The position numbers and the translations under genes are program-made. A stretch of 64,000 nucleotides of DNA. Origin: Morinoia aosen. Lineage: Eukaryota; Arthropoda; Malacostraca; Amphipoda; Talitridae. The stretch is from positions 72,476,201 through 72,540,200 of the forward strand of contig CM059562.1 in assembly GCA_030386875.1 (NCBI GenBank). The letters are read 5' to 3'. Positions 3,906-58,052 of this stretch are shown piece after piece. The notes beneath the pieces were generated by a model. It had not been told where the DNA came from and made no database searches. It saw only the letters and a program-made list of their open reading frames with translations. The stretch's first letter is position 1; every line of letters begins with the position of its first letter.

Positions 3906-4365
3906 TATAGGAACGGCGCTAATAAAATGTCTTTTGCTCGCAAAAAGTAAGGATGTTCCAACAACAATGTTGAATATGGGAAAAAGTTATTGTTTATGCA
4001 ATATATGGTGTAATTTATTATTTGCCAACTCTGCAAAGCCTGCAAAGCCTCAGCCCACTTCTAGAATGATTTAGTTAATAACACAATAAAAATTATCACC
4101 CAGAAATATTTGCAAAACTGGAAAAGTGAAGACTTGAATCGATATGCCGTTGACATTACTTTCAAGATGGCAGCCACCAAAGAACGTTAGCAAAACCATA
4201 GAAGTGAATATCATAGATTTAATATCATATTAATTTTTAAACAAAATATTTTTTGGTAATAACCTTTATTGCATTATCAACTAAAACATCATAGATATGG
4301 GTTCAGGCTCCGCAGGATTGGCAAATAATACATTACAAAGTACCCAAGCGTATAGGTAAGGAAAT

Positions 4366-5757
4366 TTGGAAACAGGGCAAGTGAGGAGTGTTAGAGGAGT
4401 GAGACAGGGCTGTACTCTGTCTCCCCCATTGTTTGGATTGTACATAGGAGAATTAGCAGTTCGACTGAGAAAGAGTGGCTTAGGACTGAAAGTTGGTAAT
4501 GAGAGACTGAGCTGTTTGTTGTATGCTGATGATGTGATTGTGGTTAGTGAATGTGAACATGAACTGCAAAGGATGCTTGACAGTGTGAATGGATGTAGTA
4601 CAGATTTCAAGATGAACTTTGGTGCCGACAAAAGTAAGGTTATGGTTATAAATAGTGATGAGACTGATAGAGACAGACTGTGGAATATTGGAGAAATCAG
4701 AATAGGTAGAACAAAAGAATACAAATATCTAGGTTGTATGATAAATAAAGATGGATGCACTAGAACTAGGGGTGAAAAATTGGCAAAAGCTATGCAGTGG
4801 AGTGGACGGTTGAGTAGTGTGGCCAGATACAGAGCAAACAAGTATGATTGTGTGAGAGGAATGTGGAAGTATGTTGCTGTACCTAGTGTTATGTATGGTA
4901 TGAGTGCTCTTGCCTGGAATGGAAGTGATCTTGAAAAGCTGGATGTAATACAAAATAAGGTAGGACGGTTAGCATTGGGTGCTCCAAAATGGACAGCTAC
5001 TGAAGCCATTAGAGCTGACCTTGTGTGGAGCCTATTTTCAGAAAGAATGTTGTAAGCAGTGCTGAATCATAAGGTGAGAATTGAAAGAATGCAGAATAGC
5101 AGATGGTGCAAGCAAATTTTTGAATGGAATCTAAATATTAACTATTGAGAGAAAGTGTGCTGGAGGCATGCAAGGAAACTTAGTATGCAAAAGATTATTT
5201 ATGTTAGAATTGGGAGACCTGTAGATGATTGGAGTTTAATAAATGCTGGAGGTATAGGGCCTGAGTGGGACTGAAAGAGGTGGAAGAAAGAGATTGAGAG
5301 GCAAACAAAAGAGTATAGATTGAATAAGTGGAAGCTTAGCATGATGCGGAAGCCTACACTTGACTGGTATATGAAAAAAGAAGCACCTAAGTTTTAGATG
5401 TTCTATGATGGTAGTTTTGGAAGTCAACTCTTGTTTGCTGTGAGATGTAAGTCATTGAGTGTGAACAGACGTACATGGAGGTGGAATAAGAATAATAACA
5501 AATTATGTCGGCAGTGTATTAGTGGAGAGGAGGAAACAATTGAACATTTTCTGCTGGAATGTAGTAAGTATGAGCAGGAGAGAGAAAGTTTCATGAATGT
5601 GGTGCTTGAGCAGTATGGAGAGAATGAGTGGTATTCCAGATGTGCTGAAGATGATTGCGGTATGAGCTGTCTTGCTGGATTGGATCAGGAGTGTAATTTG
5701 AGTATCATTGAAGCTATGAAAATGTTTCTTGTGCGTGCCTGGAGTAAGAGACAGTGA
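4366..5757 (+). pseudogene. LINE reverse transcriptase ORF, broken by stops
   Basis: A single reading frame spans the region but has in-frame stops near 5055, 5148, 5273 and 5396, so the copy is dead. The first part shows the RT signatures GVRQGC.LSP..F and LLYADDV, whose two aspartates bind catalytic metal, then an EYKYLG motif typical of LINE thumbs. The last part (from about 5398) has C-x2-C, then H-x4-C, the Cys/His motif often found at LINE C-termini. Stops without frameshifts suggest slow substitution decay. An antisense 242-codon frame over 4281-5009 is a shadow. Confidence 0.85.
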
Positions 5758-6003
5758 CTGGAATGAGCCAGTCAGGTAGAGTGGTCAGTAATGACCCAAT
5801 ATGCCTGGGGATGGTGTTTTGACATACTGGTTATCCCAGTAATGCCGTCGAATGGCAGCTTGTGACAAGGATTGGTAGATCCTGAGTAGTTTAGTGGACA
5901 AGTCTGCTACCAGGCGCTGAACTCTTTGTGTGAAAATTGTGGAGGGAATTGAAGGCTGTTACAAAGGCCCCGACGCTGTCGGCCCTCAAGTTCAAGTTCA
6001 AGT
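5758..6003 (+). other. LINE 3' untranslated tail
   Basis: The sequence after the last ORF block ends in CAAGTTCAAGTTCAAG, a short repeat like the simple tails that LINEs carry. No gene is present. Confidence 0.45.
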
Positions 6004-6039
6004 ACTCTAATGGCTCAAGCATGCAATGCAACTGCTGTG

Positions 6040-6182
6040 GAAGACGAAAATTTCAAAGTTGAATAACTCAAAAATAACGCATCAGCAAGCAGAATGTCAT
6101 TCATATAAAATGTTTTTAAATGTGTTTCTCTAGTGATTCTTTGGAACGGAATTTCAAATTTCCGTGAATCCCCTAAAATCAA
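6040..6182 (-). repeat. Dispersed repeat C, copy 2 (inverted)
   Basis: This is the reverse complement of the 3772-3905 repeat: GGATTCACGGAAATTTGAAA and AATGACATTCTGCTTGC read on the minus strand. With copy 1 it brackets the LINE remnant. Confidence 0.6.
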
Positions 6183-6689
6183 TATCGACCCAATTTTTTT
6201 TTTGCATTCCAGCAGTAGGTCTCTCGATGATCTGAGATTTTTGTGGCCTTTCAAGAATCTGCTTTATAATTATGATCTTCTTAGCTTCTCAGTATTAAAC
6301 TTTAGGATTGGCGATTAAAAAATGAAAAATTTCAGTAGAATTAATCAAGCTGAAACTTTGCAATACTGTTCATTGTGCTGCTTTTTTCATCACTTTTCCA
6401 TCCAAGGCTTTCAATATTTTATTGAAAAGTTAATTTTCTTCATTTCTAAATATATTATGAATTCTTTTACGTAGAAGGAGAGATTTGACCATCAATAATG
6501 AAATTTATGACCGATAAGTAATAAATCTTTCTCATTTTATAATTTCAAAGTTAATAAATATATTTAAAAATATTTCTTATTGAGATTATCAAGTATCAAG
6601 ATGAATTACTTTAGTATATTACTTATTAAGTACTTTGGTAAATGTTGAGGATGATTTGGGAATCAATTATCCACTTTTCGAATGCTAAA

Positions 6690-7128
6690 CATAGTAAATT
6701 AGCTCGAAATAAACAAGTTTTCTTCTATGCACTTTCCGTCGTTAATTATTATTATACAAATTATAGCGGTAGGTTCAGTTTCGTCTTTGATGACGAATGC
6801 GCTCAAATAAACAGCTACTCTTTGATTTTTGAATTTTTGTTGCTTGAATCATGGTAATAAGATCGAAATAAACTACTTTTCTTTCATACACTTTTTCCGT
6901 CGAATGAATATTTTTCGAGTTAGCGCGGTAGGTTTAGTTTCGTCTTTGATAACGAAAAAACCGGAAGCAAGATGCCATTGCAGCGTTGCCATTTGCCGGG
7001 CCAAATTAATTACTTCCCGCTTCAAACACTTGAGTTGTGGTAACTAATTCACCGCTATAACTCGTAAAATACTTATTTACGACGGAAAGTCCATAGAAGA
7101 AAACTTGCTTATTTTGATCTAATTAACT
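6690..7128. mobile_element. Fold-back element with about 90-bp inverted ends
   Basis: The block 6690-6800 (AAGTTTTCTTCTATG, CTTTCCGTCGT, TATAGCGGT) returns inverted at 7030-7128, and a diverged direct copy lies at about 6855-6960. There is no coding capacity. The structure fits a non-autonomous fold-back or MITE-like element. Target duplications were not resolved because the right end abuts the next element. Confidence 0.55.
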
Positions 7129-7135
7129 ATCTTAA

Positions 7136-7982
7136 GGGAACCGTACTCCCAGAAAATCGAATTTTCTTGAGATATTGGGTTTTAGCTGCCATAGGAAGGG
7201 TAAGATGTCAGGTACATCCTGTGAAAAAATGAAGTTCGTACGTTCATTGTCTCGCCCGCTACGGGGGTTTGAAGTATGGGGGGGGAGGGGAGGGGGAAAT
7301 GATATTTTATCATGTTACACCTTCCCCTTGGCACTTTCTTCACGGCTTGACGTTGCTATGCCTTCTTCTATGTCTCATCTTTACTGTATAATGATTTCAA
7401 GGGTCCTAGCTGACCCAAAAAAAAAATAATAGAGAAAAAATGGAAATTGTTTATATATCTTTGTTTACCTGTTTTGCCTTATTTTGGAGGACCGGAATGT
7501 GGGGTTTCAAAATATAGCGTCTTCTACAGTTTTTGAGCTACAGTGATGAGTTTAGTATCAAAAGAACCAGAATTTAATCCTCTACAAGATGACGTGAGCT
7601 TTTATTCATTTTCGGAATAGAAAATTAGCTACATTTTCTTTTGTCGGGAAAAGTGTGAAAATGGGTCAACTTTTTGTATTTTATCATTTTTATCAAAAAG
7701 TATTTCGAAAATTCAACATAACTCCATGTCACGTTGTAGAGAATACATTTCTGCTTCTTTTGATAGCAATATTATCTCTGTATCTCAAAATCTGATTACG
7801 TCCATAGATTTTCCCCAGACCCCTTAATTTGACGTTTTCTTTGAATAACACGTTTTCTATGTGGAAAATTGGAAAAACACACGAGTCCAATCTTAATCCT
7901 TGTTCAATTTTACATACCTATAGCAAGTTTCATGAAGATCGGTCGAATAGTTTAGGATTTTTTTTTTGGGAGTACGGTTCCC
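7136..7982. mobile_element. Non-autonomous DNA transposon with TTAA target duplication
   Basis: The perfect 16-bp terminal inverted repeats are GGGAACCGTACTCCCA and its complement. Both outer flanks are TTAA (7132-7135 and 7983-7986). TTAA duplications are known for piggyBac and Kolobok superfamilies, and I cannot choose between them. The 847-bp body holds no transposase and includes a G-rich tract near 7278. Confidence 0.75.
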
Positions 7983-8116
7983 TTAAGGCACCTAAAAATC
8001 AAATATCAATTCCCGAATAATCTTCAGCATTAACCAGTACTTCAGCTGGTACCTATTCATATAAATGCTTATTTAAATTGGAAATTAACTGAAAAACCAG
8101 CTGTTAATTTTTTCAG

Positions 8117-8324
8117 GTTTAATGCTTTATTTCTTCTTTTGCAGTTAATCTTGATTAGTTTTTCTAATAGAAGTTTGTAATGCACTAGTTTAGGTTATAC
8201 ATTTGCTGTGACTTTGAAATATCTATGATGAAATCTTGTGCTAACTATTTAGAAGCATTCAAGTTTTTAAAAATGATCCATTTATTAATGAGAAGTTCTT
8301 CAAAATGCTCATGTTCTTTTTATA
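8117..8324 (+). promoter_or_regulatory. 5' leader of the Maf-like gene with leader-intron acceptor and uORF
   Basis: A strong acceptor (TTTCTTCTTTTGCAG) ends at 8144, so the exon probably begins at 8145 with an untranslated leader from an upstream exon I cannot locate. A short uORF (8305-8325) ends in TAA whose last A is the first base of the main ATG (TAATG). This overlap could allow reinitiation. The main ATG has A at -3 and G at +4, a good start context. Confidence 0.45.
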
Positions 8325-9428
8325 ATGGATACTAAGAGGAAAAAGGTCTCCAATTCTGGTGAAAGTGGAGACTTCATGCTTGCAACTGACATAAGTGATG
8401 CTTGTGAAGTGGAAAGTTGCCTGAATGAAAAAGCTATTTCTTCTAACATGGAGCTATCTGAAGCATCATCATCCTTGAACATTCAATCAGAGCAGACTGA
8501 ACAAGATGCTTCCCATGATGGTTCATCTAGTAATCATGCACTAAGTAATACACCTAAGCCTTCTCTATTGCCCTGTTCAAAAGTTGAAGTAGACATTGGT
8601 GATCCTTTCATTTGTGATCCTATGAATGACCCACTGAATTACGATGGTGAAGACCCAGAAACTATAGTTCCAGATGTTAAACAGGAGCTTGTACATGAAA
8701 AAGATGGAGCCAGTTCTCAACTCTTTGATTTGAAAATTCAACGCAAATCAGGAGTCATTATGAAACTTTTAAAAACTGTGAAGTTAAAATTAGGGGATTC
8801 TCAGACATCTGAACCAATGAAATTTGCTTGTGTGTTTGCTGTGGAAAGCATATTGAAAAATTTATTCATGCATTGTGAAGCTATTCATTTTGAGCACCAG
8901 TTTATTGAGTTTTCCATTGGCTTACTTGAAGAGACTGCCAATTTACGAGACATGGTGCCACCATGTTTGATGTCTGTTTTAACAAGGCCCATCAAGAAAG
9001 TGTTGCTACCGGTCTTAGAGCTGTCAGACATGATTAAAGAGGAGCCAGAAAGTCCATTCTCTGTTACAAATTCTGATAGGTTTAAAAAATATAATGCCCA
9101 TCTCAAATCTAGCCAAATTGGAGATATCTTGGTCAGAGAAGAGGACACTGAAAGTTCCGCTGATGAGCAACTTCTCCGAACAGCTGTCACCCCACTCCTT
9201 GACAGCATCAACAGTGTGTTCTCACAGTTTTTTCCAAGCCTTTATGAGATAGACAATAGTGGTGAGCTCTCTGATGATGCAGAACCAAGTGCGCTTTTGA
9301 ATGATGATAACAATTTGGTTGGGCTACAAGTTGTGAATGGAAGTGGAGATAACAGCGCAGCTCAAATGAATGGGGGAGGCAAGAAAATCAGAAGAACCCA
9401 GACAGCAAGAAAGTCATGTGGAAAATTG
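8325..9428 (+). CDS. Maf-like gene, coding exon 1
   Basis: Encodes residues 1-368 and ends in phase 0 at GTAAGC. Ser/Glu/Asp-rich, with sumoylation-type sites VKQE and IKEEPESP, a pattern common in transcription factors. A more ordered helical block (about residues 130-235) contains clusters such as [12 protein letters not shown]. If the donor were not used, translation would stop nine codons into the intron. An antisense 108-codon frame is a shadow. Confidence 0.8.
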
Positions 9429-12400
9429 GTAAGCAGATTTCATGGCCTTATGCTTTAACAAGTTGTTATAAAATAACTAGAAAATAAGTTGGATAATTTC
9501 TTAGCCTTTCTGGCGTTCAGTTTTTGGAATGCCTTTTAACAAACTTGTACTTATGTTTTTTATGCATTTTGAATGTTGTTACTCCTTGTGTAGAATCCAA
9601 TTTTTTTTTTTAAATACAGAGCTAAGGGAAATTTACCTGTTTGTTTAGGAGATAAAGTTCAAGTTCCAGAGATTTGCTAGCTTATGCTTTCTGTTGCTGC
9701 CAATTCTGATGAAAAATAAAAATTTGACATACTTATAATCCTCACCAATTGTACCTGTCTATTAGAAGTTGAAAGTTGAACAAAAATATCCTAGTCTTCT
9801 TAGATGACTAGGTCAAAGTACATCTCATCTTGGGATAAACATAATGCTAAACTCATAGTGGTAGTAAAGTGCTTGGGATTGAAACAGAACGTAAAATTGT
9901 TTTAGCTTTATAATCTGTAACAACACTGAGAAAGATTTTCTTAGTTGGCCTTAGGCACATCAACAGGAACCAAGAGGCCCATCTATAGTGTGGAGGCAAA
10001 GTATGTACCAGGATAATTTCATAACTTGGGGTTTAGTCTCCATGAGTCTCCAAGTTGCATACTCTTGGAGGGGAAAAAAAAAAATGGAATGAACACAAGA
10101 TGGAATTGGATATTAGAGTTTACCAAAATTTTCCAGATCAGGCTGCACCTGCCAGTGAAGTTTACATTATAATTTGCTTGGAGAGCTTTATGCATCAGAG
10201 ATAAATACTAATTCAGTTTTATGTGCACTTCTTGAAATTTCATTCAGCATGAATCAGGAAATTCTTATTGCATATGTTGAAATTAAATTGAGTTGCTATC
10301 AAATTGTGAATATTGATATTCAGATATAAATGGTTCATTGTTATTTGGCTTCTAGGAATAGTTTATCATATTGAATTGTATCAAAATAATCAAAGGATAG
10401 GAATGTAATTTACTCTTTTACATCACCAAATTTGAGAATCGGAAAGATTAGGATTGTTGTTCTGTTTGCTCATTTAATTTTATTGTAATAAAACATCATT
10501 AAAGTAAGAGTAAATGTGAGTGAAGGATTTGCCTTGAACTTGTTCTAACATTTTCTTCTTGTGCAGCATCCAACAGGAAAGCCAGTAAGCCAAGAGCATT
10601 TTTCTACTGAAATTCACACAAGTTTTTGTGATCAACCTAGGTGAGTGAGGTCATTTGGTGTAGTACTGACTCCCCGTACTATAAATATTTTAATACTTGA
10701 AATGAATATAGTTTAGATGAAGATATGCATTCACATTGGTTTTCTAATAGTAATAGTAATTTTATGGGAATTTTTAAAATTTTTTCCATTTGTGATGATT
10801 CTCATGGAGAAATTATCAAATTGTATTTCTTTATGCCTTTATTGTAAAGAAAAATAAACAATCTTCATGTACTGTATGTTTTGTAAAACTACCAGAAATT
10901 ACTCTATGAATTTTTTAGCAGTTTTGAATTAAAATTTAAAAATTCAATATTTTTAGCTAAGTTGGAAGTAAACTTCAAAGTTTTGTTGAGTTAACTCTGC
11001 GTTTTTTCAGGGACAGCAATGAAGAGGTTAGCAGAAGTGACGTACCTCTCACTGACAGCAGAAGCTGCAGTTTTTTGGGCTGCTCGAGTCCAGTCTTGAG
11101 AGAAGATCCACACAACCTCTGCGCTGCCCACGCTCCCTGCACAGAAAACTTCAATTTCACTCCTTGCTTGCACTGCCAAGAGCTTGCTGCTAAAGTGGCA
11201 TCTTCTCAACAGCCTTTGTGGAAAAACATTTTCATTTTTCGTTTTGATCAGTTCAAGTGCTATAGAAAAACCAACGGGTTCAAGTTTGACGTGGCATATG
11301 CAAGTGATGCAGTCAAGTATTTTTTTGAAATTTTTGATTCAGCTCTTCATTTTGATGATTTGCCATTTAAGCTGAGACTTAGTGAGTTAATTTTTAGAAA
11401 TTTGTTCACTAAAGCTGGTGAACTTCAGAATCAGCCATTTTGTCCATCATTGTTTAACCCACACAGCAATGACAGCAACTCGGCTTCCATCACTTCCTCT
11501 TATTATCAAACACAGGTAAGTGCTTTTCTTTGTGCTTGTCTGCTGATAGCCTTTACCCTGAGTAGTAAATTCCTGCTCAATTTGTTGAAATTGGGTTCTA
11601 TGCAGCAGTGTTTGGCAGGGATATTTTTTTTAATATGAAACTTGGAGTTATGATACAACAGCATTGTGTTATGCGCTGGTATTGATCACTGCACTGGTAT
11701 TGATCAAAGTTAGTTGCGCCATTTGAGCTGATGACACAAATGATACAGATTGAATTGCTCTTATGAATTGCTCCTTGTTCAGAAATGAGGAGTATAGCAA
11801 GACACAGTTTAATTTTTGCAGGGGTAGCGTGAGTCTCTCCTGTCGTGTAATGCACTGTTTAACTAAAGGGATTTTTGGAGAACACTTTGTTTGAAGTCAG
11901 ATTGAAGATTTTTAGAAGAGATCTGCCTGGAAATTGCCTTTATTACATCTAGTGAATCACTTGCAAGTCCTTTAAATTTGTAGCATTAGGAATGCACTGT
12001 AATGCTGTATAGCATCTGGCTATTTATGATGGTCATGTGTGCAACATTATTTTGCACCCTACATATCCTTGGTTGTTCTAGTATTGCTGTCTCTTCAACA
12101 GTATTATGTTCTTGTTTTTGCTGGTGTTGCTGTCTCTTCAACAGTATTACGTTTTTGTTAATGCTAGTATTGCTGTGTCTTCAACAGTATTATGTTCTTG
12201 TTTTTGCTGGTGTTGCTGTCTCTTCAACAGTATTACGTTTTTGTTAATGCTAGTATTGCTGTGTCTTCAACAGTATTATGTTCTTGTTTGTGCTAATGTT
12301 GCTGTCTCCTCAAAAGTATTATACTCATGTTGATGCTAGCATTGCTTTCTCATGAACAAGATTTTATTCTTGATTGTGCTCTTATTGCTGTTTTATCAAA

Positions 12401-15400
12401 AGTATAATATTTTTGTTTGTACTAGTATTGACATTTCTACCAGTATTGATTTTTATTGATATGGGACATTGTTTTATAAATAAATTCAATGTGGTTTAAT
12501 GTTTCTTATATGCTAGAGAGAATGTTTCTTTTCTGGTCCAGCCAACTCATATTTTTTCTCTCTTTGATAACTAAATTGAAGGTTTGTTGAGCGCCCATTT
12601 TTTTGAGGTGTATATCAAATCAAAGGTAGATATTTTTTCAATATGATGTATACTTATTTGATGCATCACATATTTTCTTCTCAAGTCCTTAGCTCTGCAA
12701 AGATTCCTGGAATGGAAGTGTGTCATGATGTTGTTATTGAGTGTTGGCTATTTCGTACCCACAGACACCTAATGGAGCTTCAATATATTCTCATCTAAAA
12801 CACAAGACTAATTCCGGGTCTCGAAGAAGAAGAAGGAGTAAATATGACCGGTCGGGGGAAGCCATCCACAATGTAAGATGCTTCAAGTACAGTTGTATGC
12901 TTTTCATGTGCAATGTGCTGTGCTGTGATGTTTGATTTGACATTGGCCTCATTTTTTATTCATGTTGCTTAAACTTTAATTCATTACCTATTTAATCTGA
13001 ATGATATGCTGTAAGTAAACCCAGGGAACCTTGTCAGTTTGTTTCTTTTTTCATTTTGCCTTTTGGGCCTGCAAGGTATTGTGTGATTACTCATATCAGA
13101 TTTCATCAAGTGTGTTGTCAGGGTTAAAATTTTTGCCATCTTCTTATTGTGTCACTTGAATTTAATTTTGCTATGTTTGGTTGTTAAATTGTTAATACAA
13201 TTATACTGATATATTTTCCTTCTAGTATCAGCACAAATGTGAATAACTTTTTTAAATTCTTATCACTTGTGTAATTCTTAAATTTAACAGTGACAATATT
13301 TTCAAGGACCATAAAAATCTACTAATAACCTTCATAAATATTTCAGCTGGCACACAGATGCTTAAATTTTTGGCCCCCCTACCAATCCTTGGGCTACTTC
13401 CATATTTCAATACTTAATGCTTATATAATCTGCCCTACTTCAGATCTCCCAGAGGGAACATGTGAGGTCCTGAAGCTAACAGTTAGGTACGCTTTTTTGT
13501 TGAAATACAGACTTAGAATAGTTTTTTTGTGTTACGGTCATCTAATCTAACTTGACCTTTTTCAGGTTATATCAAACGGCACAGCTGCATCCAGCTCAGG
13601 TGCAGGCAGCCACAGTCACAACAACTCGACCATAGCGACGCCTGACCTCACCGAGATGATGTCCGATTGCCAAGACCCGCCCATAAACCAGTTCCTCCAC
13701 GAGATATTGTCAAGAGATTCTAGCGTAGAGAATGAGACTCCTCCTGGGTTGTCCAGGCTGAGTCGCATGCTGCTGTGCGACCCTCTTACTTGGGACACGA
13801 GTGTCATCATCTCTGCTGTCAAAAACAAAATTGGGATCTTCAAAGACTCCCAGTCCTGCAAGTCTATCATCAGGTCTGTGTTTTGATTGTAGTTTGAGCA
13901 TTAAGTCATGTTGTATTGTGTTTACTTTGGTCTCATGTCGTAAATCCATCATCAGGTGGGTGTTTTGATTGTAGTTTGAGCATCAGGTTATGTTGCATTA
14001 TGTGTTATTTGGGCGAATATTGTGCAAATCCATTACCAGGTTGCTGTTTTGATTGCACATACCTTGTGCTTGTGTCTTGCAAGTCCATTTTCAAATAGGT
14101 TTTTCGATTGCTTATATTTTCCTTCTGTCTTGCTATAATATCATCTTTGCTCGAGGTCCTTGTCATAACTAACAAGCATTCGATGCATGTATGGCTTTAT
14201 CAGGGGTATTTTATTAATTTTTTCCTAGTGAACCCATCAGTAGCTAAATATTTATGTCTCTTCACACTAATAATAATGAAAGTAATGCTTCAAACTGTGG
14301 CATGAGCTATATACTGCGATATACTGTTTTTTTTTTAGAACCTGCATTAGGGCTTGAGGCTCTGGGTTTACCTTGTCATTTGGCATTCGCAATGATAGTC
14401 TGACATTGTGTTATATCTAGCTTTTTGGTCAAGCTCATCAATGATTTAGTCATTGAATCGTTACTTCAGTAATTTGTTCCCTATGCCTAAAATAGTTTGA
14501 ATATTGATGTTTTAAAATATGAAGATAATCACTGATCCTTCTACCAAAATGTTCAATTGTTAAAATTAGTGATTGTTTTTGTATATCAACTCCCTTCCCC
14601 TCAGCTTTGTGCGTGCCAGCCTGAGCCACTCTTTCTCGGAGGCACAGCAAGAAGCTGAGGCATTCGTCACCCTGCATCCACGACTCGAGCTGGTGAGGCA
14701 AAGGATTACTTCTACCTTAGGGTCTCAAATAGCCTTTTTTGGTAGTGCGCTTCTGCCAAGAGTTCTCAAATTGATTCTTTTGATGATGTGTTTATCCTAG
14801 TCAGAATTTCCAAATTAATTTTTTTTCATTACGCGCTTTTCCTGCCCAAAGTTCCCGAATTATTGTGTTTATCATAGTCAGAATTTCCAAAATAATTTTT
14901 TTCAATACGCGCTTTTCCTGCCCAAAGTTTCCAAATTATTTATTTTAATGATGTGCTTTTCTGCTCAGAGTTCCCAAATAAATTATTTTAATGACATGCT
15001 TCTCCTGCTCAGTGTTCCCATATTTTTTTTTTCTGATGCAGTGCTTCTCCTGTCAAGAGTTCCTAAATTATTTATTTTTATGATGTGCTGTTCCTGCTCA
15101 AGATGTCACATTTGGCTCGTTTTCACTGGAAACTTAGCTATGATAGCCACTCAACATCTGCTACCGTTCAAGGTTGCCAGATGCTGACTGAAGTTCATGG
15201 TGCGATTTTAGGTATAAGAAACAAAATTGAGAAATTAAAACTGCCATTGTGTAAACCCTGCTGTGACCTTAATAGTGATCAGCCTGCCTAGCCTCTTTTG
15301 TTGAAGAAACAAATTTGTTGTTCTTAAATTGGCGTTCTCAATTAGCATTCTCAGAATGGAAATGCAAAGTTCCAAGCAGAGGGTTAGGTAGGCTTTTTTT

Positions 15401-18400
15401 GTTGAATCAGTGTAAATTTTTCGTTTTCTTACAAACCTTCTTTTATTTTGGTTCACTGCTGTCCTTTTTTTCATCACCTATTTTTTTCTTCATCAAATGT
15501 TATCTTATTTTATGATTTTCCTTGCAACTTGCGGTTTCTAAGTACAGAAGGTTTGGTGTGGGAACATACCTTACGCATAGATTCCGTGTTCCCATACCTC
15601 CACACGAGACAAAGTCTTTATTTTCTTAGAAACACCTTTGTTGCAGTTAGAGTGGTTTAAACTAACCCATAATCTGATCAAATTTAATCAAAACTGATAA
15701 AAATGTATCAGAACAACTGAGCAGTAGGTTAGGAGGTGAATTGCAATTGGTGCAAGTCTAAAACCACACAAATCTAAAACACCACACATGCAAAACACCA
15801 CAAGTGCACCACACCGCAAGTCCAAAACTCTGCAAGTCTGACCACAACACAAGTGCCAAACCCAAGTCTGACCACAACACAAGTGCACAACACTGCCAGT
15901 CTGACCGCACCACAAGTGCAAACACTGCCAGTCTGACCGCACCACAAGTGCCAAACACCTCAAGTGTGACACCAGCACCCTACCCGGCAGGCGTACGCGA
16001 TGCAAGTGAGCGCACTGCTGCGGCAGGGGCAGGAGGAGCAGGCCATGCGCTGGTGCCAGCGCTGCCTCGCGCTCGTCTCCCATGCCTCCGCCATCAGGGA
16101 CTTCATCCTCAGCCGCGACTGTCGGCCCGTGAGTGCTGTTGTGTGGCTCTGTCTCCCTGCCTCCTACTTGTGTGTGTGGCTCTGTCTGTCTGTCTGTCTG
16201 TCTGCCTGCCTGCCTGTGTGTTGTTGTGTGGCTCTGTCTGTTTGCCTGCTTGTGTGTGTTGTGTGCTTCGGTCTGCCTGGTTCCTTCTTGTGTCTCTGCA
16301 ATGCCTCCTACATCCAGATACAGGAAGCATTAATCTATGCGTCATTATGGTGACTTACCCTCTAACTTGTGTACCTCTGCCTCCTAATTGTGTCTCGACT
16401 CTGCCTTTTAATTGTACCTTTTAGCCTTGTTGTGTGAGTGTTGTGATGAGCTTTTTAGTTCCACCTCCTACTTTCTTGTCTCTCATTTGTCTTTGCCTGC
16501 TTGAAGGGCTTTTGCGGTCGTTGCAGTTCAATGTACTCCACTTGTATCTTGTTTTTAGTATTCTGCATGGTATTCGAATAAAGTTGGTTTTGGTCTGTCG
16601 TTTCTTTTCTTTCATTTCTTATAATATATGTTAGAATGTCTTGTTCTGATCTTCATTGTGTTAATTCAAGTTCTTTTTGTATATAAACCTTCTGCAACTT
16701 ATTTTAATTTCATTTTTTGTATTTTGACTACACACTCCTCATGTCACTAGCTGTTGACAAAGAACATTTTAATGGTGTTTCGACTCAGAGTAGTGTACTG
16801 AACCACCTCAGAATAATCTACTAACTGAGAATAATCTACCAACTCAGAATAGCGTACTCAGAATAGCGTACTCAGAATAGCGTACTCAGAATAGCGTACT
16901 CGGAATAGCGTACTCAGAATAGCGTACTCAGGATGGCGTACTCAGGATGGCGTACTCAGGATAGCGTACTCAGGATAGCGTACTCAGGATAGCGTACTCA
17001 GGATAGCGTACTCAGGATAGCGTACTCAGGATAGCGTACTCAGGATAGCGTACTCAGGGTAGCGTACTTAGGATAGCGTACTCAGGATAGCGTACTCAGG
17101 ATAGCGTACTCAGGATAGCGTACTCAGGATAGCGTACTCAGGATAGCGTACTCAGGATTGCGTACTCAGGATAGCGTACTCAGGATAGCGTACTCAGGAT
17201 AGCGTACTCAGGATAGCGTACTCAGGATAGTGTACTCAGAATAGCGCACTCAGAATAGTATACTAATTTTTTTACATTCAAAATTAGAGCTTCGGCGAAC
17301 TTTTGAATGCTGTCGTGCTTAGCAAAGATTCAGCTCGCTGAGGCAGCTGCCAGTGTCTGCTGACGTGCTTTTGCTGACGGACGGCCTTGTCTCGCAGGGC
17401 ACGAGCTCCTCCTCCTCTGCTGACGCCCCTCCTGACGACTGCCCTGACGGCGCCGTCTCTGCGCCGGACTCGCGCTCGCCTCCGCCCCCTGTGAGTGTCT
17501 TCTTGTGGTAGTCATCGTGGTGTGGTGGTTAAGACTATTGATCACCGTGGTGGAATGGTTAAGAGTGGTGGTCACCGTGGTAGAATGGTTAAGAGTTGTG
17601 GTCACCGTGGTGGAATGGTTAAGAGTGGTGGTCACCGTGGTGGAATGGTTAAGAGTAGTGATCACCGTGGTGGAATGGTTAAGAGTGGTGGTCACCGTGG
17701 TGGAATGGTTAAGAGTTGTGGTCACCGTGGTGGAATGGTTAAGAGTGGTGGTCACCGTGGTGGAATGGTTAAGGCCCCTTTCACACAGAGCGTGAAATCA
17801 CGTTGCGTGTAAAAATCTCGCAGCAGGATTTCACGCTCAATCGTTCACACGAGGCATTTTTTTATGCTTGATTCTATCAGTGTTGCATTGCTGTTCTCCG
17901 AGTGTGCTCACGAGTGTTTGTGGACTGGGTAATAATGGCTGCTCAGAGTAAAGTAAAGAAAGCTCTCCTTTTATACTTGCTGTATAAAAGACAGCAAAGG
18001 AAGAGAAGAAGGCGGTGCTGGGTACATAAGGTAGTCAGTTTAAGGCGCAAGAAGGAGAATTATCCACACTATTTGCAAAATTAAGGGAAGATGAAGCCAA
18101 ATTCTTCAATTACTTCCGTATGTCTGCCGAAAGTTTTGACGAATTGCTGTCATACGTCCAAGGCAAATTAACCCGCAACAACACGCAGATGAGGGATGCT
18201 GTACCTGCTATTGAAAAACTGGCTTTAACCCTCAGGTAAAGTATTTCGATCTTGCTAAGTAAGTAGGTTGTAATAATGACAATATTAATAAAAAATCTTA
18301 CTTAGTATTCCAATCTTACTTAGTATTCATATAAAAGATATGTAAGATCCATATGAAAGATATTTAAGAAATAAACAATAACACAACACATCCACTCTGA

Positions 18401-20016
18401 CCTCATCCACACATCCACTCTGACCCACTCTCTGAACCGCACTGCGAGGCGGAGTGAAAACACGCACAGTGTGCAAGGTAGACTTGAACACCAATGAAAG
18501 CTAAACTTTTGCGTGAAATTTCACGTTGTGTTTTTTCCAGACACACGCTCGGCATAAGGCGTGAACTTTCACGCTGCGTGAAAACCTGTCGCGTGTGAAC
18601 AGAAGTGTACATTATCTATGTCCGCTTAGGTTTGGCGTGAAAGGGGCTTAAGAGTGGTGGTCAAGGTGGTCTAGTGGGTGAAAGTGTTCGCCCTTTGTGG
18701 ATGCAGTGCAAGCTTGGTGTTTCTCTTCATTTTAGAAATGAAGAGAGTTAACTGCTATTTCCGTTCCTATTTTACAATTTGAAAAGGATACCTGCTATAA
18801 TTAAATCTTTACTGATTAGTTTTCAAATATTTAAAATGCAATGTACAAGACGATGCTATGTATCAACTTGATAGGAATTAAAAAATCCTTTTCTTCTCGT
18901 TTGTCCGCACAGACTTGCACCAGTTGTAATTTACTTTAGCATTAAATAGTCACACATGTGTTCTGGTGTCGAGTTATAACCATCCGAGTTTTGTGATACT
19001 TTTCCAAAATATCGGTGATTATTTCATGAGCTTTTCTTGACGAGAAGATTAAGTCCTGTACTTGAACCCTTATGTTAAGACTTCCTTGCTTTTTGACGTA
19101 CGTAATTTTCATAATTTTACGGAAGTCAAATTGCATTTCGACTTACGACTTGTTGAGTCAGTGAAATTTTATTCTGTGCGCTTTCAAACTTTTTGTATCC
19201 GCACAGTTGCCTCCTGCGGGGACGATCATCCCAGACCTGTCATGGCAGCACTTCCAGAAGCTGAGCGACGAGAACCTGCCTACCGCCAACACCGCCGACC
19301 CTCCTGCCTCTCTGCCATGCACCTCAGCTCTGTCAGACCTGGTTTCCACCCCTCCTTTTGTCGTCCCTGCCAACAGTCTCTTCACTACGGGAGTTCAGTC
19401 CTCTTCTACCAACTCCCGCTCCTTGCCTTGCAACTCCAGGAGTTCCTCCACTTCCGGCACCTCAGCTCCTGCTGCGTCGAAGTTGCCCAGCGATGTCATC
19501 GCGTCCATCATCAAGCGGTCGTCTTCCATACGCGAGGTGTCGACGGAGCAGGTCAGGGAAGAGTCCACTCACCTCATCAGTGACGAGCATCTCTTAGCGC
19601 TGGGTGTGCGCCAGCTCAACCAGCTTTTCAGGGGCCTGCCGCCGTTTTTGATTCAAGTGCTCAAGCAGCGGAGACGGACGCTCAAAAATCGTGGCTACGC
19701 TTACAGCTGTCGTCTCAAACGTAAAAGCGAGAGTGAGACCCTCAGTGTCAAGTGCAGGAAGCTGACTAAGGCTTTGAATGAGGTCATCAAAGAGAACCAA
19801 AACCTCCGCAGTGCTCATAAGACTCTCAGGAAAGGTTACCGGCAACTCCTCACGAAAATTAAGTCATACGAGGCTGATTTTCAGCAAGACGTTGAGGTCG
19901 AAAATTTACTTGCTAATCCTGATCCTCCGCCATCGTTGATGCCCGTTGAGGAGTTTCAACCGAAGGATCAGGACGACTACGAAGAGGATGCAGAGAGCGG
20001 AGAGGAGCCTGTATGA
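8325..20016 (+). CDS. Large protein with C-terminal Maf-type bZIP domain (nine coding exons)
   Basis: Join 8325-9428, 10567-10640, 11011-11515, 12765-12872, 13566-13873, 14605-14692, 15991-16128, 17398-17490, 19207-20016. Every junction has GT..AG and phases agree throughout, giving about 1075 codons. Residues about 1-250 are acidic, with VKQE and IKEEP SUMO-type sites. Near 412-448 lies a Cys/His cluster (C-x4-C-x12-C-x2-H-x2-C-x8-C-x2-C). Basic runs follow (KKIRR, SRRRRR). Residues about 640-775 are helical. The Maf extended homology region lies at about 930-954, the basic region [20 protein letters not shown] at 959-978, and a zipper with heptads L-L-V-L-L-L follows. Maf proteins bind DNA as dimers in the nucleus. 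Small Mafs are about 150 residues and large Mafs about 300-400, so this length is unusual. The N-terminal two thirds match no family I know. Confidence 0.8.
9429..10566 (+). other. Intron 1 of the Maf-like gene
   Basis: AT-rich intron between GTAAGC and TTCTTGTGCAG. No repeat family or ORF of note was seen. Confidence 0.6.
10567..10640 (+). CDS. Maf-like gene, coding exon 2
   Basis: 74 nt, residues 369-392 plus two bases of a split Arg codon. Acceptor TTGTGCAG, donor GTGAGT. It is short but keeps frame with both neighbours. Confidence 0.7.
10641..11010 (+). other. Intron 2 of the Maf-like gene
   Basis: 370-bp AT-rich intron with the acceptor GCGTTTTTTCAG. Nothing else was seen. Confidence 0.6.
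11011..11515 (+). CDS. Maf-like gene, coding exon 3
   Basis: 505 nt from acceptor TTTTTTCAG to donor GTAAGT. It encodes the Cys/His cluster (Cys at about 412, 417, 430, 436, 445, 448 and His at 433), a candidate zinc-binding site, then aromatic-rich helical sequence ([20 protein letters not shown]). Family not recognised. Confidence 0.8.
11516..12764 (+). other. Intron 3 of the Maf-like gene
   Basis: Contains the 43/86-bp tandem array at 12060-12350 and AT-rich unique sequence. The ORFs across the array come from the repeat. Confidence 0.6.
12060..12350 (+). repeat. 43-bp minisatellite in 86-bp dimers (intron 3)
   Basis: Two alternating forms of a roughly 43-bp unit share TTGCTGTCTCTTCAACAGTA. 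One continues TTATGTTCTTG and the other TTACGTTTTTGTTAATG. About seven units, the last ones degenerate. This is a small higher-order structure. Each unit carries a TCTTCAACAG string that resembles a splice acceptor. Confidence 0.75.
12765..12872 (+). CDS. Maf-like gene, coding exon 4
   Basis: 108 nt, exactly 36 codons, phase 0 at both ends. Encodes a basic stretch ([11 protein letters not shown]) that could serve as a nuclear localisation signal. Acceptor TACCCACAG, donor GTAAGA. Confidence 0.75.
12873..13565 (+). other. Intron 4 of the Maf-like gene
   Basis: AT-rich, with a partial copy of the SINE-A repeat at about 13446-13550. Confidence 0.55.
13446..13550 (+). repeat. SINE-A family, partial copy 1
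   Basis: Matches the front of the family in the same order as the other copies: CCCAGAGGGAACATGTGAGG, then GTTAGGTACGCTTTTTTGTTGAA, then TGTTACGGTCATCT. The rest is missing. Confidence 0.55.
13566..13873 (+). CDS. Maf-like gene, coding exon 5
   Basis: 308 nt, phase 0 to 2. Encodes a Ser/Asn-rich start, then a helical region ([27 protein letters not shown]). The codon third positions are clearly more GC-rich than in exons 1-4. Its donor CAG|GTCTGTG is weak and is duplicated downstream in the intron. Confidence 0.75.
13863..14110 (+). repeat. About 82-bp tandem duplication of the exon 5 splice-donor region
   Basis: Four decaying units each begin with a form of TCTATCATCAG|GT and continue GTTTTGATTG. 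Unit 1 spans the real exon end. Unit 2 offers CATCATCAG|GTGGGT at 13955, unit 3 CATTACCAG|GTTGCT, and unit 4 has lost the site. Use of the second donor would add 82 nt and shift the frame. Confidence 0.7.
14605..14692 (+). CDS. Maf-like gene, coding exon 6
   Basis: 88 nt that complete the split Ser codon from exon 5 and end in phase 0 at GTGAGG. Encodes an amphipathic helix ([14 protein letters not shown]). Acceptor CCCTTCCCCTCAG is strong. Confidence 0.75.
14750..15110 (+). repeat. Degenerate tandem repeat, units of about 60 bp (intron 6)
   Basis: Recurring blocks GAGTTCCCAAATTATT, TTTTGATGATGTGCTT and TTCCTGCTCA/CCCAAAG, about six diverged units. Confidence 0.55.
15340..15668 (+). repeat. 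SINE-A family, copy 2 (intron 6)
   Basis: Has the ordered family blocks GGGTTAGGTAGGC, TTCACTGCTGTCC, CATAGATTCCGTGTTCCC and TTGCAGTTAGAGTGGTTTAAACTAAC, in sense with the gene. Diverged at the front. Confidence 0.65.
15760..15985 (+). repeat. ACCACAAGTG-rich tandem repeat beside exon 7
   Basis: Units of about 17-25 bp built on CACAAGTGC and AGTCTGACC reach to within a few bases of the exon 7 acceptor (CTACCCGGCAG). The repeat supplies part of the C-rich tract before that acceptor. Confidence 0.65.
15991..16128 (+). CDS. Maf-like gene, coding exon 7
   Basis: 138 nt, 46 codons, phase 0. GC-rich. Encodes two helices ([18 protein letters not shown] and [12 protein letters not shown]) of tetratricopeptide-like appearance, not enough to name a fold. 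Donor GTGAGT. Confidence 0.75.
16140..16300 (+). repeat. TCTG/CCTG simple repeat
   Basis: GTGGCTCTGTCTG units with an inner (TCTG)n and (CCTG)n run at about 16180-16215. Several overlapping ORFs on both strands here are repeat artefacts. Confidence 0.7.
16785..17262 (+). repeat. 14-bp minisatellite (intron 7)
   Basis: Unit TACTCAGGATAGCG, nearly perfect from about 16853 to 17250 (around 28 copies) with ragged older units (CTCAGAATAATC) at the left edge. AGAATA variants sit at both edges and AGGATA in the middle, as expected if the centre was homogenised most recently. Confidence 0.85.
17398..17490 (+). CDS. Maf-like gene, coding exon 8
   Basis: 93 nt, 31 codons, phase 0. Low-complexity Ser, Asp and Pro ([17 protein letters not shown]), probably a flexible linker before the bZIP exon. 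Acceptor CTTGTCTCGCAG, donor GTGAGT. Confidence 0.7.
17508..17772 (+). repeat. 30-bp minisatellite with tRNA A-box-like unit (intron 8)
   Basis: About nine copies of a 30-bp unit (GGTCACCGTGGTGGAATGGT plus TAAGAGTGGT). The segment TGGTGGAATGGTTAAGAG resembles the internal A box of a tRNA or tRNA-derived SINE. The unit length is a multiple of three, so open frames on both strands are artefacts. A PIF/Harbinger element interrupts the array, which resumes in phase at 18649. Confidence 0.85.
17773..18648 (+). mobile_element. PIF/Harbinger-type element remnant inserted in the minisatellite
   Basis: 876 bp with ends GGCCCCTTTCAC and GTGAAAGGGGCT (11 of 12 bases inverted) and a TAA on each side (17770-17772, 18649-18651), matching the 3-bp TWA target duplication known for PIF/Harbinger. 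Subterminal GCGTGAAA motifs occur near both ends. It carries only the N-terminal piece of a transposase. The array resumes in phase on the right, so insertion came after the array formed. Confidence 0.8.
17935..18236 (+). pseudogene. PIF/Harbinger transposase, N-terminal fragment with frameshift
   Basis: Starts at an ATG ([13 protein letters not shown], then a basic run and WVH) and continues after a frameshift near 18045 with [20 protein letters not shown] and IEKLALTLR, the characteristic N-terminal helical region of Harbinger transposases. It ends at CTCAG|GTAAAG, a likely old splice donor. The DDE catalytic part is absent, so it is not functional. Confidence 0.75.
18649..18770 (+). repeat. 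End of 30-bp array and degenerate tRNA-SINE-like segment
   Basis: After the insertion the array gives one last unit (TTAAGAGTGGTGGTCAAGG), followed by TGGTCTAGTGGGTGAAAGTG and GATGCAGTGCAAGCTTGG, spaced like the A and B boxes of a tRNA-derived SINE but decayed in box B. It may be the source of the 30-bp unit. Confidence 0.4.
19207..20016 (+). CDS. Maf-like gene, coding exon 9 with bZIP domain
   Basis: Terminal coding exon, 269 codons, acceptor TTGTATCCGCACAG, stop TGA at 20014. Exon residues 1-120 are Ser/Pro/Thr-rich. 124-148 is the extended homology region ([19 protein letters not shown]), 153-172 the basic region, and leucine heptads lie at 179, 186, 193 (Val), 200, 207 and 214. The tail is acidic ([12 protein letters not shown]). 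Small Mafs have Ala and large Mafs Gln where this protein has Tyr in GYAYSCR, so DNA preference may differ. All DNA-contact Arg and Asn positions I know of in the NRGYA..CR core are kept. Confidence 0.9.
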
Positions 20017-20625
20017 TGCTCAGTTTCATAAGCTTGAAAAATTATTCTAATCTTGTATATGTACTTTGTATGGCTGAGTTATAAGTGTTCACACAGTTTA
20101 TGTCTAATAATATGTTTTGTTGAATGTTACTTAACTTAAACAGCTTTTTAGTAACCTGTGTCTTCATTTTGGAACTCTGTTTTTGGTTTTTATGGGTGAG
20201 GGACGTGAGTTGGACATAAGTAACTTATCACTTGGTAGCATGACCGTCGTGCTGCTGCAGCTTAGCGATTTCTTCTATTCTCGGTATAAATGAAACGTGA
20301 AACAAAAGAAACATGACGCCTCCTGTCCAAAGCAAGGACGATTTCGCGATAGAATGACTGCCTTTTAAAAAATCTTCTAAAAAATGATGCTTTTTAAAAC
20401 GCCTTATTGAATAACTCACCACCTAATTTAATAACTTTAATCCTATTTAATAACTCACTCAGGATTAGCGTTTGGTTTTGATCGGCTATCAAAATTTAAG
20501 AGACTCATTTTGAAGCAATGCTCAGAGTTAATGAATTCGTTATAGTTCAAACACGTCAAAGCGATTAGCACTATGTAGATGGCATTAGTTGGAAAGAGTA
20601 AATAAAATACACTGATTTCAGTGCA
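20017..20625 (+). other. 3' UTR of the Maf-like gene with poly(A) signal
   Basis: No ORF continues past the stop. The first canonical AATAAA is at 20601-20606, a plausible cleavage signal giving a UTR of about 600 nt. Confidence 0.5.
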
Positions 20626-56345: not shown

Positions 56346-58007
56346 TTACACCAAATCAGCACTCTGGTAACGAGGATCAAAAGGAACTTCGTCCGACACG
56401 AGTCTGTTGTGGGTCGTGTGATGAGTATCGCGTGGAAGTGAGCCGGCATTGTAGGTCGGGGTGTACTTCTCGTATTCGTGAGGGTGGTATTGCTGGTTCC
56501 CAGGGTGGATCTCCTGGTTCAGCCTGTGTTCGATGTATGGGTGGCTCTGCTCATATCCCCTTGACTCGTAAGCTTCCTGATGCCACTGTTGGTCATTTTC
56601 GTAGGGCACAGAACTTGGCGGTTTGTTGTAGTCGTGGCGGCGACTGTGGCTTATGGTTGATGGCCGGTAAGCATCTTGTCCTTTGGGCTGCTGCTGCTGA
56701 GGTTTGTAGCTCCCTCGCACATCGGGTGGAACAGAGGGTCCTTGGTTGTGGGTCCCATTGCGGTATCCTCTTTGAAAGTTCCCGACTGAAACGGGAGGGA
56801 GAGTTGTGAACGTATGAGTCTCGTGCTCAATGTTTTTCTTTTTATTCGGTTTATTTGGGACTGTCGGTCCTGCGTGTCTACGCTCTGACTGGCGTATTGA
56901 ATGTTCAATGACTGCCTGCGTTGTGACGTGGTGCTTGCTGCGTGCGCCCGTTGGGTTGTTCTCCAAGATCATGTGCTTCACACTGACTGCTGGCGTCTGT
57001 AAGACATCATCTGTTTCGCTCCAGCCCTTAGAATTTGGAGCTTGCGCTACTCGAGGTTCTGGCTTGTAACTCGCTCCGTCACGGTGAACGTTTGCGTCCG
57101 AATTCGTAGCTGCTTGTGTGTCTCCCAACCGCAGAGCCTGTACTATTCGCTTAGAGTCAGGGGATAAACTGCCTCCAGATTCTGCTCGGTACCTTTCGTA
57201 TCCCGCGCGTTTTTTCTGCTCCAGCAGGAGCTGTTCTTTGCGCTCTTGCTCCTGTCTCCGCTTCAGTTCCAGGTAAAGTTGTTTATGCTTAATCTTGCGC
57301 TCTTCTTCCCTGCGCTCTGCTTCCCGGCGCTCTGCTTCCTTGTGCTCTTCTTCACGCCTTTTCGAAGATGCGTCCGACTCTGAATCGCTCTTTGACGGTT
57401 GATTGTTTTTGTTTGAACGTTTTTCTTTTTGAAGTCCCAGAGACGAATTTGACTCTGACCTGGATTCTAAGTCGAAGTCATTCGCTGCGTGCAACATGTC
57501 GACGCTTTTGAAGCGTTTACTTAAAGTGTCGATGGGCTCACGTCCGCGAGCATCGTCGTCAGACTGAACATCTTCAACGTGTTTACTTCCCTTCTTCGTC
57601 GAGGAAGATTTGCTTTTGTTTGATCTTGTCGACGTGCGCACATTTTTTGTTTTCTTCTTTCGGTTGGTTCCTCCATAGCTTCTGTTGCTTTTATTTTTCA
57701 CTTGCTGTCGTTTTTCCCTCCACTCTTGACTTTGAATGCTGTCAATGGACAAACGGCGTTGTCCCTTGTCCTTTTGGATGACTGCTTGACCTGTCCGACG
57801 GCTCACCGAGTCATCGGAATCGCTTTCTTTCGGCGCAGGCTGACGTTTTGAAGTGCGGGCGACTGGTGTTGGGATTTCTGGCTTCTCACTTCCCACGCTG
57901 TCCTTCCTTGACTCTTCCTCGGAATCGCTCTCATATCCGTACTTCGACTTCTGTTTTTTACGATTTTTTGCAAGTTTTTTCAAGATGATGTCCACCGTGC
58001 TGATCAT
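56346..58007 (-). CDS. Charged, disordered protein with central coiled coil (553 aa)
   Basis: Uninterrupted frame from ATG at 58007 to TAA at 56346. An in-frame stop lies eight codons upstream and a splice acceptor ends at 58051, so this ATG is the likely start, with the leader spliced. Residues 1-20 are hydrophobic then basic (STVDIILKKLAKNRKKQK). 25-215 is Ser/Asp/Glu/Lys-rich with many phosphosite-like SDSE blocks and basic runs. 216-268 is a highly charged coiled coil (EEEHKEAERREAERREEERK). 400-553 is rich in Tyr, His, Pro and Gln, and the chain ends SADLV, which could act as a PDZ ligand (inference). No catalytic domain. Composition suggests a nuclear or cytoskeletal scaffold, or the cytoplasmic tail of a larger membrane protein. 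Family unknown. Antisense frames are shadows. Confidence 0.75.
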   Translation of the reverse strand: MISTVDIILKKLAKNRKKQKSKYGYESDSEEESRKDSVGSEKPEIPTPVARTSKRQPAPKESDSDDSVSRRTGQAVIQKDKGQRRLSIDSIQSQEWREKRQQVKNKSNRSYGGTNRKKKTKNVRTSTRSNKSKSSSTKKGSKHVEDVQSDDDARGREPIDTLSKRFKSVDMLHAANDFDLESRSESNSSLGLQKEKRSNKNNQPSKSDSESDASSKRREEEHKEAERREAERREEERKIKHKQLYLELKRRQEQERKEQLLLEQKKRAGYERYRAESGGSLSPDSKRIVQALRLGDTQAATNSDANVHRDGASYKPEPRVAQAPNSKGWSETDDVLQTPAVSVKHMILENNPTGARSKHHVTTQAVIEHSIRQSERRHAGPTVPNKPNKKKNIEHETHTFTTLPPVSVGNFQRGYRNGTHNQGPSVPPDVRGSYKPQQQQPKGQDAYRPSTISHSRRHDYNKPPSSVPYENDQQWHQEAYESRGYEQSHPYIEHRLNQEIHPGNQQYHPHEYEKYTPTYNAGSLPRDTHHTTHNRLVSDEVPFDPRYQSADLV

Positions 58008-58052
58008 CTTCAGCGGTGAAGTTGGCCTCTACCTCCCGTCAAGTGCAATCCT
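58008..58052 (-). promoter_or_regulatory. Leader-exon acceptor and 5' UTR of the coiled-coil gene
   Basis: On the minus strand CTTTTCTCTTTGCAG ends at 58051, followed by a 43-nt untranslated stretch with an in-frame TAG before the ATG. This implies at least one upstream non-coding exon, not located. A donor-like GTGAGTGAG near 61308 on the minus strand is a candidate. Confidence 0.45.

Follow-up and report, generated by a model that had tools for sequence, protein, structure and literature searches.

Small Mafs are short proteins without an effector region, and they form a known partnership with the CNC bZIP proteins (Nrf/Cnc), long proteins that, like the product of the gene described here, carry their bZIP at the C-terminus. 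A survey of bZIP proteins sorts the bilaterian Mafs into a large and a small group (PMC4736632). Among the open-licence papers listed by literature searches, no title or opening of an abstract names a third arthropod Maf of the make-up described below, and arthropod proteomes may well carry the protein already as an uncharacterised entry.

The window analysed here is a stretch of 64,000 nucleotides from the talitrid amphipod Morinoia aosen (assembly GCA_030386875.1, contig CM059562.1, positions 72,476,201 to 72,540,200 of the forward strand), and positions refer to this window unless a contig of the genome is named. Its plus strand holds a chain of nine exons (8325-20016) whose DNA-binding end, judged from its sequence, is certainly a Maf-type bZIP, a complete unit with a six-heptad zipper. 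On balance we favour the reading that one gene encodes a protein of roughly 1040-1090 residues that acts in the nucleus as a sequence-specific DNA-binding regulator and that probably joins a small-Maf-type bZIP to an unrelated nuclear protein.

The nine-exon chain and its probable continuity

When the nine exons are rebuilt, every intron begins with GT and ends with AG, the phases fit, and the product is a protein of 1075 residues followed by a stop codon. Ranked with generic splice-site matrices, the eight donors lie between the 95.9th and 99.9th percentile of all GT, and the eight acceptors between the 92.3rd and 99.9th percentile of all AG, within 8000-20000; the lowest-ranked acceptor is that of exon 9, the Maf exon. 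The chain was compared with the choices of a purpose-written gene finder, free to start and stop anywhere on the plus strand of 6001-20300, at intron costs of 2, 5, 8 and 11. At a cost of 5 the finder reaches 346.8 bits, against 72.5 bits when that stretch is read on its reverse strand and 9.1-25.6 bits for five other 7-kb stretches of the window. Exons 1, 2, 3, 5, 6 and 9 are recovered to the base at costs of 5, 8 and 11; at a cost of 2, exons 2 and 3 come out fragmented and several short exons are added. As a sanity check, the finder's gene model on another contig, C5, was translated, and its protein contains several RRM domains.

Exon 1 (8325-9428) encodes residues 1-368 from a start ATG, an acidic and Ser-rich part followed by a helical region predicted with low confidence. 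Its stop-to-stop frame of 388 codons is the best of six and scores 66.6 bits with the AT-rich codon model; the finder includes it, and a genome search with this exon gives one match. Exon 2 (10567-10640; splice sites at the 99.5th and 99.6th percentile) and exon 6 (14605-14692; acceptor at the 99.9th percentile, finder-chosen) are both needed for the frame, which runs into TGA when either is removed. Exon 3 (11011-11515) ends in the donor CAG/GTAAGT at the 99.9th percentile and is found whole at three of the four intron costs. Exon 5 (13566-13873; 33.8 bits, finder-chosen) has an acceptor at the 99.3rd percentile and, at the 95.9th, the weakest donor of the eight, and exon 9 (19207-20016; 119.8 bits, acceptor at the 92.3rd percentile, finder-chosen) is terminal and contains the stop codon.

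The remaining exons are less sharply defined. Exon 4 (12765-12872), which contains a basic RRRRR cluster, is best regarded as optional: its coding score is -0.9, the finder chooses it at none of the four intron costs, placing an 18-base segment instead at 2, 5 and 8 and nothing at 11, and the original nine-exon model scores 330.1 bits with it and 330.9 bits without it. A cost of 2 also yields a segment at 12827-12872, with the same end as exon 4. For exon 7 (15991-16128; 37.9 bits) the finder prefers an end at 16215, which runs into a CTGT-rich repeat, and for exon 8 (17398-17490; 29.8 bits), a Ser/Pro-rich linker, a start at 17323. Removal of exon 7 or exon 8 brings no stop into frame and lowers the score of the full model to 290.8 and 297.9 bits, respectively. 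The original prediction that nine exons join into one protein thus stands for phase, splice-site rank and the six exons that the finder returns, but not for exon 4, the end of exon 7 or the start of exon 8, and from exon 3 to exon 5 the chain appears continuous.

Several of the introns carry repeats. An 82-base unit (13859-14055) is present in about 2.4 copies, which take in exon 5 at its 3′ end, donor included, and extend into the intron; intron 7 holds a 14-base repeat of about 30 copies that match at 96% (16842-17258). In intron 8 a transposon-like insert (17772-18651) lies within a 30-base minisatellite and has similar inverted ends, as judged by eye, and inner inverted repeats. Two short frames of this insert presumably resemble PIF/Harbinger transposases; one of the two, searched against Pfam, gave no match. 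At costs of 2 and 5 the finder adds a segment inside the insert (18630-18665).

The codon scores need to be read with their history. With a single codon model trained on kinase genes (5962 codons), the reading frame is the best of six in only two of the nine exons (1 and 9), exons 1-4 score -3.2, -4.5, -14.8 and -7.0, and in exons 3 and 5-8 reverse frames score higher than the reading frame. The positive exon scores come from two codon models split by GC3, adopted after the single-model result had been seen and trained on 24 of 30 kinase loci, the animal's own large Maf and Jun genes, and a 560-codon open frame of the window; three near-duplicate kinase loci (L034, L038, L041) and three with stops (L039, L044, L049) were dropped. 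Several of the genome's 130 kinase matches form pairs on one contig, whose members are separated by about 0.04 to 4 Mb and score equally or nearly so; these are perhaps unmerged haplotypes or recent duplications.

Exon 9 alone amounts to 269 residues without a start. Its single in-frame ATG (19939) lies after the start of the bZIP match (19576), and the stretch from the upstream in-frame stop to the exon 9 acceptor contains no in-frame ATG, so that translation of the bZIP requires splicing to exons further upstream. A separate ATG start inside exon 9 and before the bZIP, an event that would have spoken against the nine-exon protein, is thereby excluded. With exon 9 startless and exons 5-8 upstream in phase, the protein also does not have the short form, devoid of an effector region, of a small Maf, and the gene is therefore not filed as one.

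A single gene is likely but unproven. The most serious alternative, though a less likely one, is a pair of neighbours on the same strand: a gene for the Cys/His-module protein, made up of exons 1-3, perhaps exon 4, and an unseen last exon, and a gene for a Maf protein of about 450 residues, made up of an unseen 5′ exon and exons 5-9, with a possible ATG at 13656. The base composition is what suggests it. GC3 is 0.33, 0.17, 0.42 and 0.33 in exons 1-4 and 0.64, 0.62, 0.91, 0.74 and 0.65 in exons 5-9; weighted by codons, it steps from 0.35 to 0.68, a difference of 0.33 placed exactly at the junction of exons 4 and 5. Ten myosin control genes, assembled by position from 40 of the 77 myosin matches of the genome (one stretch with a stop), show largest such differences of 0.04-0.26 per gene, exceeded here in all ten comparisons, whereas single exons inside one control gene differ by 0.07-0.44. 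Since the controls belong to one family and are mostly GC-rich, we take the step as a warning, not as proof. GC3 spans 0.36-0.85 over 27 kinase stretches of the genome, so two genes could differ by such a step.

The scores lean towards one gene by a small margin. At the four intron costs, in ascending order, one gene reaches 382.6, 346.8, 321.6 and 298.7 bits and the best non-overlapping pair 379.5, 341.4, 312.2 and 289.7 bits; the pair is lower at every cost, by just 3.1, 5.4, 9.4 and 9.0 bits, and the short last and first exons that have to be invented for it shift with the intron cost. Exons 1-3 with a made-up end score 78-88 bits, barely above the 72.5 bits of the reverse strand. It is important to point out that the near-perfect exon 3 donor and the strong exon 5 acceptor are in the same phase with or without exon 4, and that both need a partner. 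Two such genes within 2 kb of each other would, moreover, be unusual in a 2-Gb genome.

The front part and its Cys/His module

Residues 1-925 match no Pfam family at its cut-off, whether the whole protein or pieces of it are searched. The original prediction had described some 800 front residues as matching nothing recognisable; this is upheld at the level of Pfam families, but the Cys/His cluster turns out to be common to a multi-RRM protein of the same genome. The module (11066-11176, residues 412-448) has eight ligands spaced C-x4-C-x9-H-x2-C-x2-H-x2-C-x8-C-x2-C, and a genome search finds all eight kept at C5:8310099-8310293 (E 3.9e-5, reciprocal 9.1e-6). The C5 copy has C-x10-C before the last pair and is followed, as is the copy in the Maf gene, by LWKN; it lies inside a gene model (C5 8315632-8293430) that has RRM domains, three of them RRM_1 stretches and one an occluded RRM, in place of a bZIP. 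A third genome match to the module (E 0.284) is at chance level, and a profile of the two sequences has no match in the PDB. The module probably binds zinc. The N-terminal regions of the two proteins resemble each other only at noise level (20-21 bits, E above 6), and one of the C5 stretches concerned lies outside the gene built there by the finder.

The front part holds candidate sites of sumoylation. There are two plain SUMO motifs, among them VKQE at residue 118 (8676-8687); at least two such motifs occur in 13.7% of 5000 shuffles, which makes them weak evidence. The stretch IKEEPESP (residues 237-244; 9033-9056), which we take to be a phosphorylation-dependent sumoylation motif (PDSM), is a rarer find: when residues 1-400 are shuffled 5000 times, a PDSM arises in 0.56% of cases.

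Structure prediction, which the original prediction had named as a check, gave AlphaFold models of residues 125-320 and of exon 3, both at low confidence (pLDDT 44.6 and 35.4). A Foldseek search with the model of residues 125-320 gave no match at E <= 0.001 among 124; within the best 50 of these, the top probability, 0.30, belongs to a CTD-interacting domain at rank 26 and is not evidence. A weak TPR-like hairpin spans exons 6-7, and a TPR or acyl-CoA-oxidase-like reading of these exons stays below the curated cut-offs (TPR_14, 0.0047), while a Codanin-1-like reading has no match in Pfam or the PDB. Viral contigs were scanned with the part from exon 3, with the Maf part and with the alignment of the module, and none of the three scans gave a relative.

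These features also bear on whether the locus works at all. A decayed duplicate, or a non-working sequence derived from a mobile element, would account for the fast divergence of the Maf domain, for introns filled by repeats and a transposon-like insert, and for a Cys/His cluster that, we assume, resembles those of retroelement ORF1 proteins. However, the large exons have kept open frames, the genome shows no second near-identical copy in searches covering exons 1, 3, 5-7 and 9, and the module sits in two convincing places, all of which makes such an origin very unlikely.

The Maf domain among the bZIP genes of the genome

The Maf domain of the gene (19576-19848, residues 930-1020) comprises the extended homology region, the basic region and the leucine zipper. 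Pfam bZIP_Maf (PF03131) matches it at 5e-17 and 62.6 bits (cut-off 22) over positions 1-91 of 92, and a whole-genome search with the profile returns this locus at 2.3e-15. The nearest solved structure in the PDB is MafG (1.1e-15, 66.6 bits), followed by MafA and MafB with shorter matches of about 50 bits. In an alignment to MafG, MafA and MafB the basic region, NRGYAYSCR, fits the NRGYAxSCR type. The bZIP was recognised as Maf-type from the outset, a call that the profile, the structure search and the basic region all confirm; the CNC proteins have AAQNCRKRK at this place, and the basic region is not of their type.

Set in the register of MafG, the zipper has LLVLLL at its d positions and SCLNHY at its a positions. 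Two of the a residues, the N at a4 and the Y at a6, recur in MafG, and the animal's own small Maf has them in each of its two zipper exons. Small Mafs (MafF/G/K, arthropod maf-S) thus agree with the gene in the extended homology region, the basic region and these two zipper positions, but the gene differs from them in its long N-terminal part and its acidic C-terminal tail, with 42/94 residues identical to MafG. The own small Maf, moreover, has its Maf domain interrupted after RGYAA, whereas here the domain is uninterrupted in one exon. Large Mafs (MafA/B, c-Maf, Traffic jam) have the same DNA-binding unit and a different N-terminus. The a positions of the gene are not those of a large Maf, the own large Maf reading KNLLVR, with L at a4 and R at a6; MafB, in an alignment read by eye, has V at a4 where the gene has N. 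Identity is 37/94 to the own large Maf and 31/77 to MafB. In a tree of eight rows the branch of the gene measures 2.47, where the median is 0.24, and the nearby forks stay open.

Across the 2-Gb genome the bZIP_Maf profile marks six places, which we take to be a large Maf (C9:21796014), the gene under study (C7), a small Maf (C13:28911692), Fos (C12), Jun (C15) and a CNC-like gene (C15:35913292). Four matches to crustacean neurohormones are in keeping with an arthropod. As the usual large and small Maf are present elsewhere, the gene is an extra and very divergent Maf, unlike the animal's two ordinary Mafs and with small-Maf-like zipper positions. That it might instead be one of these two with mispredicted upstream exons is scarcely credible: it is true that nothing is missing from the domain and that the zipper positions are those of a small Maf, but clear representatives of both kinds exist in the same genome, identity to them is just 37/94 (large) and 36/95 (small, with either zipper), and the branch is long.

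The small Maf on C13 is followed by two tandem, differing zipper exons (28915939-28916263 and 28917304-28917607) that look like alternatives. The two versions have a common first half and are identical at 75/97 positions, a figure that understates how far the zipper parts have diverged.

Proposed function and origin

For the extra Maf encoded by a single gene, contact with DNA is a well-supported prediction; the dimer partners, the sign of regulation and the role of the module we infer. Its target would be a Maf recognition element, bound by a homodimer or together with a small Maf or a CNC or Fos partner. Net g-e charge counts are +2 for the homodimer, +2/+3 with the small Maf, +2 with Fos, +1 with CNC and 0 with the large Maf and Jun, but as the known pair of small Maf and CNC itself scores 0 among the controls (MafG-MafG +4, Fos-Jun +4, Fos-Fos -2), the count predicts partners poorly. 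The long front part would supply an effector function that small Mafs lack, and the SUMO-type site might tune its activity, repression being the more probable outcome because of that site. The presumed zinc module may contact protein or RNA.

A fusion probably gave rise to such a gene, with a small-Maf-type bZIP as one partner and an unrelated nuclear protein as the other. More tentatively, it could stand for a third class of Maf, in which a small-Maf-type bZIP is combined with an orphan nuclear protein bearing an undescribed eight-ligand module in common with a multi-RRM protein, the step in GC3 marking the old border between the genes. If true, such a third Maf, with its long and regulatory N-terminal part, would be an example of how an effector region can be acquired by a small-Maf-type bZIP. 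It would also introduce an undescribed module, probably one that binds zinc, that accompanies a DNA-binding domain in one protein and an RNA-binding domain in another.

Elsewhere in the window, the 560-codon open frame used in training (56349-58028, minus strand) is charged, has no Pfam match at 0.01 and is perhaps another gene, and a reverse-transcriptase stretch lies at 4360-5052 (RVT_1, 2.9e-15).
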